Shown: one piece after another, positions 1 through 10,686 of the stretch
How positions within the stretch are numbered: the first letter of the stretch is position 1
Layout of the letters: every line of letters begins with the position of its first letter
DNA from: Thioalkalivibrio nitratireducens DSM 14787
Lineage (GTDB): Bacteria; Pseudomonadota; Gammaproteobacteria; Ectothiorhodospirales; Ectothiorhodospiraceae
Assembly (NCBI RefSeq): GCF_000321415.2
Contig: NC_019902.2
Location: 3,286,001 to 3,350,000, forward strand
Length of the DNA stretch: 64,000 nucleotides
Direction: 5' to 3'
Program-made: the position numbers and the translations under genes
Notes under the pieces: generated by a model
Seen by the model: the letters and a program-made list of their open reading frames with translations, nothing else
Databases searched by the model: none
Told to the model about the DNA's origin: nothing

Positions 1-71
1 TGGTCGATGCGAAAGCCTGCCGGTGGGCGCAGCACGTCCATCGCCACGGAGCGGGTATCAGGAGCGAGCAT
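1..71 (-). CDS. PLD-like (phospholipase D-fold) protein, N-terminal fragment cut by window edge
   Basis: Only the first 23 codons are present, beginning MLAPDTRSVAMDVLRPPAGF on the minus strand. The start codon overlaps the stop of the DUF6361 gene (TGATG), so the two are translationally coupled. From memory, this N-terminal pattern (DTR, then LRPP-G-F/Y-x-D) opens PLD-like proteins that sit next to DUF6361 genes and helicases in bacterial accessory clusters. The body of the protein, including any HKD catalytic motifs, lies outside the window, so the assignment rests on a short match plus context. Confidence 0.55.
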   Translation of the reverse strand, partial: MLAPDTRSVAMDVLRPPAGFRID

Positions 72-1279
72 CAGTGACCGAGTCCTTTATGAAGATCGAT
101 GAGGAGCCGGCGTACCTGGGGCCACCGGAACTGCATGCGCCCGACACCGACATTGCCGCGCCAGTCCAGCAGCCGCCCCTGGTTCACGACCCGGGCCCTC
201 GGTCCCTTGAGTTGGCGCTCCCGGTCGGCGATCAGCCGGCGCAACTCTTCGTCATTCACGACGCCATCCGGTCCGTTCATGGCGACCCGCCGGGACCATG
301 TTTCGACGAAGCGCTGTTGGGGTGTGGGCAGGTGCGCGCCGTGCAAGCGCACGAAGTGCCAGAGCGCTTCTGGATCAAATGCGTCCTCGTCGGCCTCGCG
401 ATTCGCCCATTCTGCGAGCGCGTCGCGGTAATGCTCGATCCATTCCTCGTCGTCAGCCCGGTCGTGCTCGGTACGACGCAGTTCCGCCAGCAACAGGTTG
501 TAGAGCAGCGGCGCGCCCTCGACGTGCCGTGAAAAGCGGCGCGCAAGCTCAACCACATCGCAGATGGCCGGAGGGCCGCGAAGCGCTTCCGGGTCTTCCC
601 ACAGATACTCGGCCGGTGAACTGGAGCCCTCGCGGGCAAGCCACGCCAGCAGGGTGCCGTTGCAGGTGGCTTCCAGGCGCCCGAGCAAGAAGTCGGCTTC
701 TTCCGGGGTCAGCGCAAAGGCGGCGTCTTCCGGGAACGCATCGGGTGCGGGCGGGAGCCGAGGGTGCCAGGTGGCCTCCTGAGTCCAGATCACGCCGGGA
801 TCGTCGGTGCGAGGGTAATCGGAACGCCGACGCCGGAGGCTGTGGAAGTGCGCGTGATACCAGCCCTGACTCTTGGCGGGAACGAACAGGCCCCAGTGCA
901 CTAGGGCCGCCCAGTAGGCGGAACTGGCCAGCCGCGCCACCGCCTCGCGCGCGTGGACGCCGATGATCCCCTCCGGCGCATCACTGGTAGCAAGGGCGTC
1001 GATCAGCGTGACCTCAAGGCGCCGAGCCTCACTGGCGACATCAAAGTTGCCGTGCCTGGCCTCGAGCTGCTGATAGACCCACGGAATGAACAGCACGTAC
1101 CGAAGCCTTGTGTGCAGCACCGAGGTGCCGGGAAACAGGGCGTTGGACAGCACATCGCGCAGGCTGCCAAGCCCGAGCTCATCGACCGTGCCCTGCTCAT
1201 TGAACAGATCGAGCACCTTGCGCGCTTTGTCGCGATCCGCTGCGGTCAGATCGAGCCAGTGCAGATAGGCGTTATCCAT
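71..1279 (-). CDS. DUF6361 family protein (probable defence-cluster component)
   Basis: This 402-residue protein opens with a WLDLTAADRDKARKVLDLF-type segment followed by DELGLGSLRD and LFPGTSVLHTRLRYVLFIPW, the hallmark start of DUF6361. The biochemical function of the family is not known to me. I recall it beside PLD-like proteins and helicases in accessory regions, and here the next gene is coupled by a one-base overlap and looks PLD-like. I chose the ATG at 1279 over an in-frame ATG at 1306 because a strong GGAGGGGG Shine-Dalgarno lies directly upstream of it. An inverted repeat and a divergent HTH regulator gene lie upstream, suggesting repression from that region. Cysteine is scarce, and no signal peptide or membrane segment is seen, so a cytoplasmic location is likely. 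Confidence 0.8.
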   Translation of the reverse strand: MDNAYLHWLDLTAADRDKARKVLDLFNEQGTVDELGLGSLRDVLSNALFPGTSVLHTRLRYVLFIPWVYQQLEARHGNFDVASEARRLEVTLIDALATSDAPEGIIGVHAREAVARLASSAYWAALVHWGLFVPAKSQGWYHAHFHSLRRRRSDYPRTDDPGVIWTQEATWHPRLPPAPDAFPEDAAFALTPEEADFLLGRLEATCNGTLLAWLAREGSSSPAEYLWEDPEALRGPPAICDVVELARRFSRHVEGAPLLYNLLLAELRRTEHDRADDEEWIEHYRDALAEWANREADEDAFDPEALWHFVRLHGAHLPTPQQRFVETWSRRVAMNGPDGVVNDEELRRLIADRERQLKGPRARVVNQGRLLDWRGNVGVGRMQFRWPQVRRLLIDLHKGLGH

Positions 1280-1415
1280 CGTCTCCCCCTCCGGACGTAT
1301 CGTCATTCTCCGGCTGATCGCGTCTCCTCTTCCGCGCGAACGCGAAGATTAGATCAGCATTCCGGATCGGCTGGCGGTTGGTCGCTTCAGGGTTCATGTG
1401 ACCATTGTCTGCAGT

Positions 1416-1440
1416 CTATGCGACTTCCCATGTCGCATAG
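1416..1440. promoter_or_regulatory. Perfect 9-bp inverted repeat, candidate operator
   Basis: The arms CTATGCGAC and GTCGCATAG are perfect complements around a 7-base centre. The site lies between the divergent DUF6361 gene (start 1279) and the HTH regulator gene (start 1479). Such palindromes between a WYL-type regulator and a defence operon are typical operator positions, for example for BrxR/CapW-type proteins. Binding by the local regulator is inferred only. Confidence 0.5.
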
Positions 1441-1478
1441 TGGGGTTCCGATGGAACTTCCGTGCACACTGGAATCCT

Positions 1479-1751
1479 ATGGCCAATCACAGCGACCAGG
1501 TTTACCGGCAGTGGCAACTACTGAGGGCCATCCCCCGTGCGCCCCAGCGTCGTTCGACGCGCGAGCTCTATGAGCATCTGCGGCATAACGGTTACGACAT
1601 CACGGTGCGCTCCGTGCAGCGGGATCTGGCGGCTCTGTCGACTCAGTTTGGCTTCGTCGACGAAACGCAGGGCAGAACTGCATACTGGTACTGGCCGGAA
1701 AGCTTCCGGGTGCTTGATGTCCCGGGCATGGATCCGAAGGATAAAGGATAG
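1479..1751 (+). CDS. Truncated WYL-family transcriptional regulator (HTH part only)
   Basis: The 90-residue product carries a winged helix-turn-helix of the type found at the start of WYL-domain regulators: STRELYEHL, ITVRSVQRDLAAL, then a FGFVDE...YWYWPE wing. Full-length WYL regulators are usually about 300 residues, so the whole sensory WYL domain is missing. I start at the ATG at 1479; an upstream in-frame ATG at 1398 would run through the inverted repeat. The stop codon falls inside the first copy of a 31-bp direct repeat, which suggests that a rearrangement removed the 3' part. It may still bind DNA as a short repressor, or be a remnant. Confidence 0.7.
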   Translation: MANHSDQVYRQWQLLRAIPRAPQRRSTRELYEHLRHNGYDITVRSVQRDLAALSTQFGFVDETQGRTAYWYWPESFRVLDVPGMDPKDKG

Positions 1752-1807
1752 GAAATCCAATCGCCTTGAGGCAATTAAGGATAGAGGATAGCAAATCCAA
1801 CTGCCTT
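1737..1807. repeat. Two imperfect 31-bp direct repeats, 40-bp period
   Basis: Copies at 1737-1767 and 1777-1807 match at 27 of 31 bases and share AAGGATA, AAATCCAA and GCCTT blocks. The first copy contains the stop codon of the truncated regulator gene. They are AT-richer than the surroundings and look like a junction left by a rearrangement. Confidence 0.7.
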
Positions 1808-1893
1808 CGCCCGAATATCCCTTCGCCCAAGGGGTCTGTCAACTCCCAACGGAAGGCCCTTCTGAGCAGCGGCGGCAGCCTATGGGGCCGACT

Positions 1894-2745
1894 TCAGCCA
1901 ATTCGACGTCCCTGATCGCCCACGCACACGACGTCCGCCGGACACCAGACCGCCGCGTCGGCGTCGCCCAGGGGCACCGTGCGCCCCGCAAAGTACTCGG
2001 CACCGACCCAGGCACAGACCAGCGCATCGAGTGCATCCTCGTACCGCTTCAATCCCGAGAGGGTTTCCACGCGCTCCGGGTCCGGAAGCTCCAGCGTCAG
2101 CCCCTCGAACACCTCTCCCAGTGCATCGCGAATCGCCGCGAACTCGCCCAGGAGGTTCCGGATCCGCTCGGACACGGTCGCGGTCGGCCAGTACTTTCTG
2201 GACTTGGCCACCTTGTACCGGATTCTGCTCGAACGCCGCAGCAGCGAAAGCAGCGCCGGGTGCGGGTACACCTCCAGGACCTTCCGGCTGTCGGGGAACC
2301 TGGTGGCCGTGGTCGCGAGCTCGTACCCGGCCGCAGACAGGGCCTGGGAGATCCGGGCGCCGAGCGAGCCTGGGCGCATTGCCGTCGGCGAATGCGCGGC
2401 GCAGCCGCGGCCGCCGAACTCTCGGGACACCGCCTGGTCTGCAGGGCGGCGCCCGCTGAATGCAGTCCGCGCGATGGGCATGTCCAGGGTCACGAGGTCC
2501 GGCGGCCGCCCGGCGAGTCGCCGCGCGGCCTCGAGCAGGCGGGGAATGTCCGGTTCGGTGCCGGAGAAACGGCGGATCGACCAGTCGGTCTCGGTGCCCG
2601 CCGCCCGTTCCATGAAGCCGAGGTAGCTCGGCGCAAGGGCGACGCAGCGCCAGCGGGCCCCGCGCTGCTGGACCAGCGCCACGCCGCTGGGCTGGCCTGC
2701 GGTCCAGGCGGAGTCGATACCGAGGACGGTCGGATGCGGTTTCAT
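1894..2745 (-). CDS. DUF429 domain-containing protein
   Basis: The 283-residue protein begins with VLGIDSAW and has an internal VTLDMPIA segment and a C-terminal ALDALVCAWVGAEY segment, the arrangement of DUF429, an RNase-H-like-fold family often annotated as a predicted nuclease. No activity is established to my knowledge. I chose the ATG at 2745 because the conserved core (MKPHPTVLGID) starts there; an ATG 42 bases upstream is possible. It is convergent with the truncated regulator gene and lies 65 bp downstream of the SRAP gene on the same strand, so the two may share a transcript. Confidence 0.75.
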   Translation of the reverse strand: MKPHPTVLGIDSAWTAGQPSGVALVQQRGARWRCVALAPSYLGFMERAAGTETDWSIRRFSGTEPDIPRLLEAARRLAGRPPDLVTLDMPIARTAFSGRRPADQAVSREFGGRGCAAHSPTAMRPGSLGARISQALSAAGYELATTATRFPDSRKVLEVYPHPALLSLLRRSSRIRYKVAKSRKYWPTATVSERIRNLLGEFAAIRDALGEVFEGLTLELPDPERVETLSGLKRYEDALDALVCAWVGAEYFAGRTVPLGDADAAVWCPADVVCVGDQGRRIG

Positions 2746-2810
2746 GTCAGCATCCCCGACCGTGCCAGGGAGCGTGTGCCCCTGCAAGGCATCACTGTCT
2801 TGGCTCGCAC

Positions 2811-3500
2811 TCAGGCTCTGGAGCCTCCGGCATCGTCGACCGGTTCCAGCAATGCAGGATCGTCATTCGCCGGCCGGTTCACCCGGGTCGAAACCGGGTA
2901 CGCGACCAACCGCTCCGGATCCTGCCGCCGGGCAACGTTGCGCAGCGTCTTCCGGTCCGAAAGCCCCGGATCCAGCCACTGCCACCGGCACCCGGGATCG
3001 AGCACCACCGGCTGGCGGTCGTGGATGAATGCGAAGGACGGCGAGACCGGTTCAGTCAGGATAGCACAGCAGATGTCCGTCCCCTTCTCGGCCGGCTCCC
3101 AGAGACCCGCGAAGAAGACCACCTCGTCCCGCTTCGGATCCTTCAGAGTGATGTAGTACGGCTGCTTGCCGGATTCGGTCCGCCGCCACTCGTACCAGCC
3201 GTTGGCCGGAACCAGGCAGCGCCGGTGGGCGAACGCGGAGCGGGAGTACGGGCTGGTCGCGGCCTTCTCGGCGCGGATATTGATCGGCGTCGGGGCGCTT
3301 TCCTTTGCCCAGGGCGGCCGAAAGCCCCAGTGCGCGAGGGCGAAGGACACCGGCGCCTCGGCGGTGGCAAGGACGGCGGTGATCTGGGTGCCGGGGGTGA
3401 CATTGTAGCGGGCGTGGCCGTCGCCGACCGGCAACTGCAGGTCGAAGTAGCGTGCCGCGATCCGGCTGCGCGGCGTGTGGAGGGCGAAACGGCCGCACAT
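2811..3500 (-). CDS. SOS response-associated peptidase (SRAP; YedK/HMCES family)
   Basis: The 229-residue protein begins MCGRFAL, exposing Cys2 after methionine removal. In this family Cys2 forms a thiazolidine DNA-protein crosslink with abasic sites in single-stranded DNA. Other family landmarks are RYNVTPGT, the conserved NIRAEK segment, LVPANGWYEW with the active-site Glu, and a late SPSFAFIHDRQPVV segment in place of the usual histidine-containing HxRMP motif. The start at 3500 is fixed by the need for Cys at position 2 and by an AGGAG Shine-Dalgarno about 9 bases upstream. It probably shields abasic sites during replication, in the cytoplasm. Confidence 0.92.
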   Translation of the reverse strand: MCGRFALHTPRSRIAARYFDLQLPVGDGHARYNVTPGTQITAVLATAEAPVSFALAHWGFRPPWAKESAPTPINIRAEKAATSPYSRSAFAHRRCLVPANGWYEWRRTESGKQPYYITLKDPKRDEVVFFAGLWEPAEKGTDICCAILTEPVSPSFAFIHDRQPVVLDPGCRWQWLDPGLSDRKTLRNVARRQDPERLVAYPVSTRVNRPANDDPALLEPVDDAGGSRA

Positions 3501-3817
3501 GGGCAATCTCCTACTGCCAGCATGTCGCGCTGATCAAGCAGGGATTACGGCTTGCCACGCGCCCGACTCGTTGACGCGCATCCGTCTGCCGTCCCAGCGC
3601 TCGAGCACTCAACAGCCCGCGTTTCAGCACCAACGCTCTCCTGTCATGAATATGCTGCGCATCCTGAAAGCGGCGGTGAGCCCCACAGTCGCAGCCCGTC
3701 GTGCCAGCAGAGGCTGTCGAGCCCCGCGTCGAAGACGTCGATTGCAAGCCCGTCGTTATCCAGCTTCTTCGATGGCCTCATCGACCGTTACGGGGTCCGT
3801 TGCCCGCGATCGGCCGC
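3501..3817. other. Gene-free spacer, about 320 bp
   Basis: Short reading frames exist in all frames, but none has a convincing start, Shine-Dalgarno or recognisable product. No tRNA, terminator or repeat is evident to me. Confidence 0.4.
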
Positions 3818-8527: not shown

Positions 8528-10686
8528 GCCGCCAGCGCTGCCATCTCGCGCCGGCTGAAGCCCGCCGCGAGGCGCGCATCCAGTGCGAACGGCGGGCGCA
8601 CCCGCCCGGGCATGTGGCGCACCAGCAGATCCAGAAAGGTCGCCTCCGGATCCAGTCCGCGCTGACGCGCCAGGAAACGGAACCAGCACGACCCGATCGC
8701 GACATGACCCACTTCCTCACGCTGGATCACCTCCAGCACCGCCGCGCTCGCGGTATCCCCGGCGGCCTCAAGCCGGCGGATCATGCCCGGAGTCACGTCC
8801 AGCCCCCGAGCCTCAAGCACGCGCGGCACGAGCGCCATGCGTTCCATCGGGTCGGCGTCGGTCTTTACCGCCATCTCCCACAGCCCGTTATGCGCGCCAT
8901 AGCTGCCGTAGTCGCATCCCGTTTCATGGAGTCGGCGGGACAGCACGCGAAAGTGTCTTGCCTCCTCCGCGGCGACCTGTAGCCAGTCGCTGACGAATTC
9001 CGCAGGCAACTCCCTGAACCGGTAGACCGCATCCAGCGCGAGGTTGATCGCGTTGAACTCGATGTGCGCGATCGCATGCAGCAGGGCCTGCCGGCCGCGC
9101 TCGGTGTGCAGGCCGCGCCGCGGCAGCTCCTGTGGCCGCACCAGTGCCGGCCGCGCCGGGCGGCCGGGAACCTCGATGCGTTCCGCAGGCGGATCCTCGG
9201 CCTGCACCTGCAGGTCACCCGCGCGCCAGGCCTCGAGCAGCCTGTCGGCACATTCGCACTTGTGCTCCGGGTCGCGCACCCGCAGCGCCCTCAGCGCCAT
9301 CGCGTACACACCGGGCGGGGTGCCGCGGGGCCGCAGGGCACCCGGGACCGGTGCCATGCCTTCGGGTGCCGACACGTGCGCAACCCCGTCGCGGGCGCCG
9401 GTCCCGTCCGCTCCATCGGAGCAACGCGCAAACGCACGGGCGGCGGGCGCATCGGGCCCAAGGCGCACCACCAGCAGGTCCATTACGTTGGTTCCGGTCG
9501 CGCCCCCGGGCAGCGACTGCCCGACCCGGTCCCAGAAGCCGCCGGTATCGGCGCGGCGCAGGGCTTCGCGCAGCGCCTTGCGCGTACGGGAATCGGCCGC
9601 GGGAGATCCGTCAGCGAACCACGCACCGGCCGCCGCCCCGTCGCCATCGGCGCCGTCGGTCGCCCCGGCCAGCACGGCCAGCGGCCGCGGCCAGCCCCGG
9701 GCAGCCCAGAGCAGCAGCAATTCCGCCGCAAGGTGGCGTGCCCGGCCGCCGCGGCCCGGGCGCGCGGGTAGACATACCGGCACCTCGCCTCCCCATACAT
9801 GCACCCCGGCCGGTGCATGCCGGAGCCGCCGGACGAGTTGGGCGGCGACCCGATGCCCCGCGCCGTCCGGGAACAGGCCGTGGTCCTGGCCAGGCAGTCC
9901 GTCACCGGCCACCGCCGCGAGCACGGCTGCGCGCGCATCGGCATTGCTGGCGACGCGCCGGTGCGACGGGCGTGGCCCCGCCGTCGGAGGCGGCACGAGG
10001 GCGCTCAGCCAGCGGTCGAGATCCGGCCACCCGGTCTTAGGGGCTTCCCGGGTTTCCGTTGGATCCGGCGGCCAGAACGGGCCGGATCCGATGCTGGCCA
10101 GTGCATCCCCGGGAATGTCGCTGATCACCAGCACGCGGATGTCGCCCGTGCGGCAGAACGTCAGCGCCCCGCCCGCCTTCAGCCGCGACAGCCGTGCCCG
10201 CACCCGGTTCATTGCCCGGATCTCCAGCCCAGCACCCAGCAGGCGAGCGTTGACTTGGGCCAGCCATTGCGGTTCGACACCCGCGCGCGGAAGTTCCGCG
10301 AGGCTGGATGCGCCACCCGAGAGCAGCACCAGCAGCGCCTCCGCAGCCGGAATCGTGCGCAGGAAGGCCGCCACCGCCTCGCCGGCCGCGAAGCTCGCGG
10401 CTGCCGGTACCGGGTGTTCGCCCGCCTTGCGCTGCACCGGAAACCCGAGGCCGGAGGTCAGGACCTGCGCATCGGCGGGCGCGACGACCAGGGCCCGGGA
10501 GATCACTCCGGGCCAGGCCGAGGCCGCACCCTGCAGCATCGTGTCCGCGGCCTTGCCCCAGGCCAGTACGTGCACCGGGTGCGCCGGGGTTTCTTCGCGG
10601 GCCAGCGCCGCTTGCACGGCATGGGCGCCGTGCACTGCCGCCACTGCAGCGCGATACCAGCTGTGCAGCGGCTCGGGATCACTCAC
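8494..10686 (-). CDS. Fusion: glycerate kinase type II (DUF4147) plus DUF455 ferritin-like domain
   Basis: The 730-residue protein is a clear two-part fusion. Residues 1 to about 413 are DUF4147/MOFRL glycerate kinase: AWGKAADTML, LLSGGASSL, ISDIPGD, IGSGPF and TGTNVMDLLV. After a linker, residues about 458-715 are DUF455, a ferritin-like four-helix domain with carboxylate/His pairs (AHIEFNAI near 541, EEARHF near 574, REEVGH near 657) fit for a di-iron site. The start is GTG at 10686 and overlaps the metZ stop (GTGA), so it is translationally coupled to metZ. The kinase part would phosphorylate glycerate; the role of the DUF455 part is unknown. No stop or shift separates the parts. Confidence 0.88.
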   Translation of the reverse strand: MSDPEPLHSWYRAAVAAVHGAHAVQAALAREETPAHPVHVLAWGKAADTMLQGAASAWPGVISRALVVAPADAQVLTSGLGFPVQRKAGEHPVPAAASFAAGEAVAAFLRTIPAAEALLVLLSGGASSLAELPRAGVEPQWLAQVNARLLGAGLEIRAMNRVRARLSRLKAGGALTFCRTGDIRVLVISDIPGDALASIGSGPFWPPDPTETREAPKTGWPDLDRWLSALVPPPTAGPRPSHRRVASNADARAAVLAAVAGDGLPGQDHGLFPDGAGHRVAAQLVRRLRHAPAGVHVWGGEVPVCLPARPGRGGRARHLAAELLLLWAARGWPRPLAVLAGATDGADGDGAAAGAWFADGSPAADSRTRKALREALRRADTGGFWDRVGQSLPGGATGTNVMDLLVVRLGPDAPAARAFARCSDGADGTGARDGVAHVSAPEGMAPVPGALRPRGTPPGVYAMALRALRVRDPEHKCECADRLLEAWRAGDLQVQAEDPPAERIEVPGRPARPALVRPQELPRRGLHTERGRQALLHAIAHIEFNAINLALDAVYRFRELPAEFVSDWLQVAAEEARHFRVLSRRLHETGCDYGSYGAHNGLWEMAVKTDADPMERMALVPRVLEARGLDVTPGMIRRLEAAGDTASAAVLEVIQREEVGHVAIGSCWFRFLARQRGLDPEATFLDLLVRHMPGRVRPPFALDARLAAGFSRREMAALAAQAGGWPASDG

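Follow-up and report, generated by a model that had tools for sequence, protein, structure and literature searches.

An intact Azaca (ZacABC) operon beside a truncated WYL-family regulator and a probable WYL-subfamily operator in Thioalkalivibrio nitratireducens

The left edge of the window (i.e. the whole 64,000-nucleotide stretch of Thioalkalivibrio nitratireducens DSM 14787 that was analysed, corresponding to G000:C1:3286001-3350000 in the complete genome of 4,002,350 bases) is, judging from gene content and order, part of an intact and complete three-gene ZacABC operon. ZacABC, as named in PADLOC, is the already known anti-phage system Azaca. As a system, this operon is one more Azaca that adds little further, and the useful part lies in its regulation, for which both a specific operator and a likely cognate WYL subfamily can be predicted. 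We consider it very likely that this region is jointly explained by an intact Azaca operon, by helicase, nuclease and adaptor roles of its products, and by ancestral WYL repression at a palindrome whose regulator has since become truncated.

The zacABC operon and its identity

Extending the analysis over the 18 kb to the left of the window revealed three overlapping genes on the minus strand, encoding a DUF6361 protein, a PLD protein and a helicase. The DUF6361-PLD-(helicase?) order proposed in an earlier sequence-only reading of the window was thus right in every part. The first gene, zacA, spans positions 71-1306 on the minus strand (411 aa counted from the first ATG), the ATG at 1279 being its likelier start according to an alignment of 23 homologues. 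Its product matched PF19888 (DUF6361) with an E-value of 1.7e-52 (179 bits versus a Pfam cutoff of 25), and the PADLOC ZacA model with 402 bits across residues 14-409. The start of zacB (position 71) has one base in common with the zacA stop, in agreement with the previously described overlap between a DUF6361 gene and a PLD-like gene. Only the first 23 codons of zacB are located within the window (positions 1-71, minus strand), and the entire gene (L002:16224-18071, to genome position 3284224) encodes a 615-aa PLD protein that matched the PADLOC ZacB model with 529 bits over residues 1-593 and PLDc_2 with an E-value of 8e-6, at 26.1 bits slightly under the Pfam cutoff of 27. A separate frame of 41 codons (1272-1397, minus strand) has its end overlapping the likely zacA start at 1279, and could be a leader peptide.

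The helicase gene zacC lies wholly outside the window, in a minus-strand frame at L002:13073-16345 with a likely ATG at L002:16237, yielding 1090 codons from a TTG or about 1054 aa from the likely ATG. Its product matched the PADLOC ZacC model near full length with 1048 bits, and Pfam Helicase_C with an E-value of 6e-8, the scan having covered 1076 residues from an arbitrarily chosen in-frame codon that precedes the likely ATG. Both PLD half-motifs (HPK...NxT and HAK...GSxNxT) were kept in 26 of 26 aligned ZacB proteins, while helicase motifs I (GLGKT), II, III and VI were kept in all 24 aligned ZacC proteins, one of which has a D-to-N change just before GLGKT.

ZacA, ZacB and ZacC are thus all present, adjacent and co-directional, with near full-length PADLOC matches, the same gene order and intact PLD and helicase motifs, and no difference from Azaca was found in the three genes themselves; the truncated WYL-family regulator and the operator are local additions. 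Since all three models are in PADLOC, a novel DUF6361 system was rejected as an identity, and the operon does not remain the under-described defence candidate that it had seemed, because it is already catalogued as ZacABC, or Azaca. In the available text of PMC12278908, "Azaca (ZacC)" is named among defence helicases, Table 1 of PMC10952713 attributes a PLD-like domain to Azaca with reference to Millman et al. 2022, and a review table in PMC12926258 places Azaca in a group of systems with the mechanism given as unknown. Literature searches on ZacA, ZacB and DUF6361 returned nothing useful, and neither DUF6361 nor Zac occurs as a word in the accessible portions of PMC12839542 and PMC12458937.

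DISARM likewise combines a PLD protein (DrmC) with an SNF2-like helicase (DrmD), and weak local matches were obtained between ZacB and DrmC and between ZacC and DrmD. However, the operon in the window has no DrmA or DrmB (the helicase-DUF1998 pair) and no methyltransferase, and a DISARM variant was rejected on scores of 24 versus 133 and 55 versus 610 bits (curated DISARM cutoffs).

Spread, gene neighbourhoods and predicted mode of action

Matches to ZacA were obtained in 8 of 369 genomes of the window's class (Gammaproteobacteria, window's own counted), 7 of 398 genomes of the phylum sample and 8 of 337 genomes of the class of G616 (taken as Alphaproteobacteria), with one or two weak matches in these samples, and in 8 of the 30 genomes of the genus, three of them as fragments only; all ZacA counts include the window's own match wherever its genome was searched, and these four samples partly overlap. 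Among plasmid records, 45 of 72,556 gave a match, and among phage records 1 of 50,697, which was partial. Viral contigs searched with ZacA and with the ZacA alignment yielded no relative.

The order zacA-zacB-zacC was found in 29 of the 29 loci examined, these being the fetched loci with a full-length zacA (window included; 8 of the 45 plasmid records were opened). They derive from the window's class, alphaproteobacterial plasmids, a Bacteroidota and an archaeal plasmid, and two MAGs, while the weak or partial ZacA hits of G048, G713, G770 and G1018, the second hit of G236 and the zacA fragments of G370, G375 and G379 stand outside this set. In loci L018 and L123 zacC falls in two frames, and it runs up to the end of the contig in L121, L123 and L124. 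For unannotated loci, the gene limits are those of our own simple gene caller.

The sequence-only reading had expected DUF6361 homologues in defence-rich surroundings, and several indeed have restriction, DRT, DrmB or AddAB-like genes among their hand-picked neighbours, or are plasmid-borne. These neighbours were picked by eye at several loci, without a genome-wide control, and comprise type I restriction genes (L016, L074, L122), DrmB (L076), a DRT class 1 protein (L119), a weak type III match (L018) and an IetA/TRIP13-like tandem AAA protein (L017). Directly upstream of zacABC in L044, L045, L047, L119 and L120 is an AddAB-like pair, in which a PD-(D/E)XK protein is accompanied by a UvrD helicase (the domain scan covered L045 alone); side by side, this pair and zacABC are arranged as if they formed a five-gene unit. 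Taken together, neither a left-hand gene lacking a PLD domain, nor the lack of a helicase or nuclease downstream, nor an absence of DUF6361 homologues from defence islands was found, the last point being based on the hand-picked neighbours. In the genus relatives L068, L071 and L072, a WYL gene shares one island with type I restriction-like genes and with either zacABC or fragments of zacA.

From what is known of the respective families, ZacC would be a RapA/DrmD/BrxH-like helicase that loads onto invading DNA and translocates along it, ZacB a PLD nuclease with two lobes that cuts this DNA, and ZacA an adaptor or recognition subunit coupling ZacC and ZacB. A profile search against solved structures gave a weak match of ZacC to RapA, no match for ZacB and no credible match for ZacA. 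Self would more likely be told from non-self by a feature of the DNA (its ends, structure or state of replication) than by a mark from a partner, because the operon in the window has no methyltransferase gene of its own. Some Azaca loci may nevertheless have a partner mark, since a site-specific DNA-methyltransferase gene (L045:15174-17876) directly follows zacC at a distance of 30 bp on a Shinella plasmid. The same lack of a methyltransferase gene in the window operon would also suit a modification-dependent (type IV-like) restriction system in which ZacA reads a modification of phage DNA instead of its ends or structure, and a trio of helicase, nuclease and reader would fit such a system. 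As ZacA matched no reader domain in Pfam, NCBIfam or solved structures, we regard this alternative as unlikely.

The regulator remnant and the dispersed repeat

Divergently from zacA, positions 1479-1751 on the plus strand encode a 90-aa protein (counted from the likely ATG) that consists of a wHTH domain only and that, by its alignment with WYL-family proteins, appears to be a truncated WYL-family regulator. Its matches to generic profiles were weak, and under the curated cutoffs where such exist, yet an alignment with the N-terminal ends of WYL-family proteins covers up to 83 of its residues, with identities reaching 46%. Of the divergent WYL-type wHTH gene with a perfect palindrome in between, as it had been described, the wHTH and the palindrome (1416-1440) therefore stand, while the gene proved to be without a WYL domain.

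Matches to the 90-aa protein were obtained in 18 of 96 relatives, at 22 places including the window's own. The other 21 places are in open frames of 269-443 codons (at least 332 in 20 of the 21), and WYL and WCX domains were detected in each of the three full-length relatives scanned. The alignment with full-length relatives runs to a conserved linker, DVPGMDP, where the window protein stops, i.e. at the wHTH/WYL junction. No WYL match was found in the 90-aa ORF and no WYL part downstream of it, and the WCX extension is absent as well, as the ORF ends at this junction. Within the genome, the only PF13280 match belongs to a different gene (C1:2914181), and a further wHTH of the same kind was not found. 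A full WYL repressor beside zacA was accordingly rejected for want of a WYL domain.

The frame of the regulator runs into a dispersed repeat (1744-1899, plus strand) composed of a 24-bp head (1744-1767) and a longer copy that starts at 1785 and extends to about 1899, and the regulator's stop codon is inside the 24-bp head. The longer part (about 110 bp) is repeated five more times in the genome, the copies being 72-84% identical. The simplest reading of this arrangement is that the regulator has been cut off at the wHTH/WYL junction beside the dispersed repeat.

BrxR and CapW, to which the regulator had initially been likened, resemble it in that the window wHTH is of the same general type and divergently positioned before a defence operon, but differ from it in the WYL and WCX domains that the window regulator lacks. 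The supposed repressor in this position is hence a truncated remnant, and because of its truncation and the loss of both domains, a working BrxR/CapW-like switch should not be assumed in this genome. In the ancestor, a WYL-family dimer bound at the palindrome probably repressed both the operon and the divergent regulator gene. In the window, the zac operon would more likely be constitutive, since the regulator has lost its WYL and WCX parts, or would at most be held weakly by the predicted wHTH fragment.

Alternatively, the 90-residue wHTH protein might be a functional stand-alone repressor that has retained its DNA-binding face and acts independently of a ligand on zacABC and on itself from the palindrome. 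The palindrome is indeed perfect, the wHTH reading frame stays open throughout the aligned domain, the linker being reached without a stop, and a single half-site is enough for BrxR binding according to the available text of PMC9122601. However, published WYL repressors dimerise, as described in the accessible parts of PMC9122588 and PMC9122601, via the WYL and WCX domains that have been lost here. Moreover, none of the 21 other homologous places holds a short wHTH-only frame (the shortest being the one of 269 codons), and the stop codon is supplied by the repeat. We therefore consider a stand-alone repressor somewhat unlikely, and retain the loss of WYL-dependent control as the preferred reading.

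Two further genes were observed around the remnant. A DUF429 gene (window 1894-2787) flanks it and has a broken second copy at G000:C1:3628880-3629557, and a gene for an SOS-response-associated peptidase (SRAP; window 2811-3506) is located within about 5 kb of it. An SRAP gene was likewise seen within about 5 kb of a WYL gene in a genus relative (L068:360-1073) and on plasmids of other genera (L186, L187, L188).

The palindrome and its recurrence beside WYL genes

The perfect inverted repeat CTATGCGAC-ttcccat-GTCGCATAG (1416-1440), a probable WYL-subfamily operator, is 38 bp away from the start of the wHTH gene and 109 or 136 bp away from zacA, depending on the start chosen. No sigma-70-like promoter was found at the palindrome, and its exact form (CTATGCGAC-n7-GTCGCATAG) has a single copy in the 4.0-Mb genome. 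Dinucleotide shuffling of the 180-bp region produced some inverted repeat with arms of at least 9 in 19 of 5000 cases. Because the 64-kb window holds 44 inverted repeats with such arms (nested variants counted), the perfection of the palindrome is by itself weak evidence, and it is the recurrence of the box beside related WYL genes that lifts it above chance.

With regard to known operators, BrxR sites consist of half-sites of 11 or 10 bp with 5 bp between (PMC9122601 and PMC9122589, in their accessible parts), and CapW sites are palindromes of 19-24 bp over the -10 element (PMC9122588, likewise). Read as 10-bp halves with one mismatch and 5 bp apart, the window box has the same 25-bp layout as a BrxR site, but the Escherichia fergusonii site (read from pEFER), AACCTACTG-AAAAA-CAGTAGGTT, is made of other letters. 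The palindrome box may stand in the supplementary table of PMC9122601. A literature search, whose reach did not extend to most subscription papers and supplements, returned Azaca and WYL together in no one paper.

The box was defined as ATGCGAC-n7-GTCGCAT. With at most two mismatches, it was located upstream of 5 of 21 other WYL homologues (L021, L022, L025, L038 and L041, of which L021 and L022 are a near-identical pair), and for each of these five boxes none of 200 shuffles was as good; the remaining 16 had no upstream box at this threshold. A recognition-helix rule, with Gln marking the box-binders, was rejected, as L025 has Glu and yet a 2-mismatch box.

The exact box has nine sites in the 369 class genomes, and a reversed control pattern occurred in 1 of the 369. 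Of the nine, five (or four of eight when the window is left out) stand at a WYL-subfamily gene or no more than 5.4 kb from one. The G038 site is just upstream of a WYL gene, and in G151 a one-mismatch box is upstream of the WYL gene with the exact box just past its stop, before the next gene. In G026 the box, inside a called frame, precedes a same-strand gene run with a WYL gene 5.4 kb on, while the G234 site is about 60 bp past a WYL stop, which is not a promoter position. The G279 site, also inside a called frame, is near a gene that by eye resembles a type I methyltransferase, with no WYL gene found, and those of G363 (dinB-like by eye), G286 (jetC-like by eye) and G171 are inside called coding sequence.

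These counts also bear on the possibility that the palindrome is an unrelated inverted repeat or transcript hairpin matching other WYL boxes by coincidence. In its favour, apart from the abundance of inverted repeats in the window, base composition alone predicts about 2-4.5 exact 14-base matches (taking an estimated 1.07 Gb), and there is no WYL gene near four of the nine sites. Likewise, none of 60 viral stretches with the box had a WYL gene near, and the similar pattern TGCGACA-n5-TGTCGCA in 318 genomes of the G616 class had one near none of its five sites, its control being present in 2 genomes. Nevertheless, the proximity of more than half of the exact sites to genes of one small WYL subfamily, the shuffle-resistant boxes upstream of other WYL homologues and a pair of boxes in locus L017 make such a coincidence very unlikely. 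In L017 (G363, of another family), where zacA has 32% identity, a box with 1 mismatch and one with 2 stand between zacA and a divergent AAA gene, which is followed on the same strand by a full-length WYL-WCX gene.

Four of the five plasmid records with a WYL match were opened. Marinobacter nauticus pMAQU02 has a 1-mismatch box preceding a set of metallophosphoesterase and helicase genes that neighbours a WYL gene, and Vibrio echinoideorum p1 a 2-mismatch box before a WYL-TerB-ATPase set, in which the WYL gene is a second one and not the initial match. On the Methylomonas plasmid a box with 3 mismatches shortly precedes the WYL gene, while the Halomonas plasmid has no box within 3 mismatches. 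The box has so far been seen in the window's class and on two gammaproteobacterial plasmids.

In the 350 bp before zacA the box was missing (best at least 4 mismatches) in 21 of 22 other loci, the exception being L017; the zacA starts of L073, L077 and L078 were estimated for this comparison. In view of these results of the viral, G616-class and zacA-upstream scans, the box is to be seen as a trait of one WYL subfamily and not of Azaca, and from these sequence comparisons it looks like an operator that belongs to one WYL subfamily and occasionally controls Azaca. A WYL gene as a standing partner of Azaca was correspondingly rejected, as a WYL-subfamily gene and the box occur together in 2 of the 29 loci (the window and L017). 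More distant WYL genes are about 4 kb (L018) and 6 kb (L077) away, that of L068 is about 14.5 kb away and without a box, and L044 has an annotated WYL gene that was missed by the profile. Boxes with 2 mismatches were also found far from any WYL gene in L014, L015 and L120.

It might be that, in the Gammaproteobacteria, one WYL-repressor subfamily shares the operator TATGCGAC-n7-GTCGCATA across unrelated defence loci, among them Azaca, the IetA/TRIP13-like AAA operon, the TerB operon of the Vibrio plasmid and the helicase operon of the Marinobacter plasmid. Azaca would then be WYL-inducible in some lineages, and the window genome a natural mutant without the sensor half, in which Azaca is kept on. 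We put this proposal forward tentatively, as a possibility falling somewhat short of an even chance. With a predicted operator and its likely cognate WYL subfamily, of which L017 offers an intact member and the window a naturally truncated one, both the inducibility of Azaca and the cost of its always-on state are directly testable. As a minor observation, two boxes (L094:8279-8299 and 9343-9361) flank one WYL gene in L094, one being upstream of the gene and the other just past its stop.
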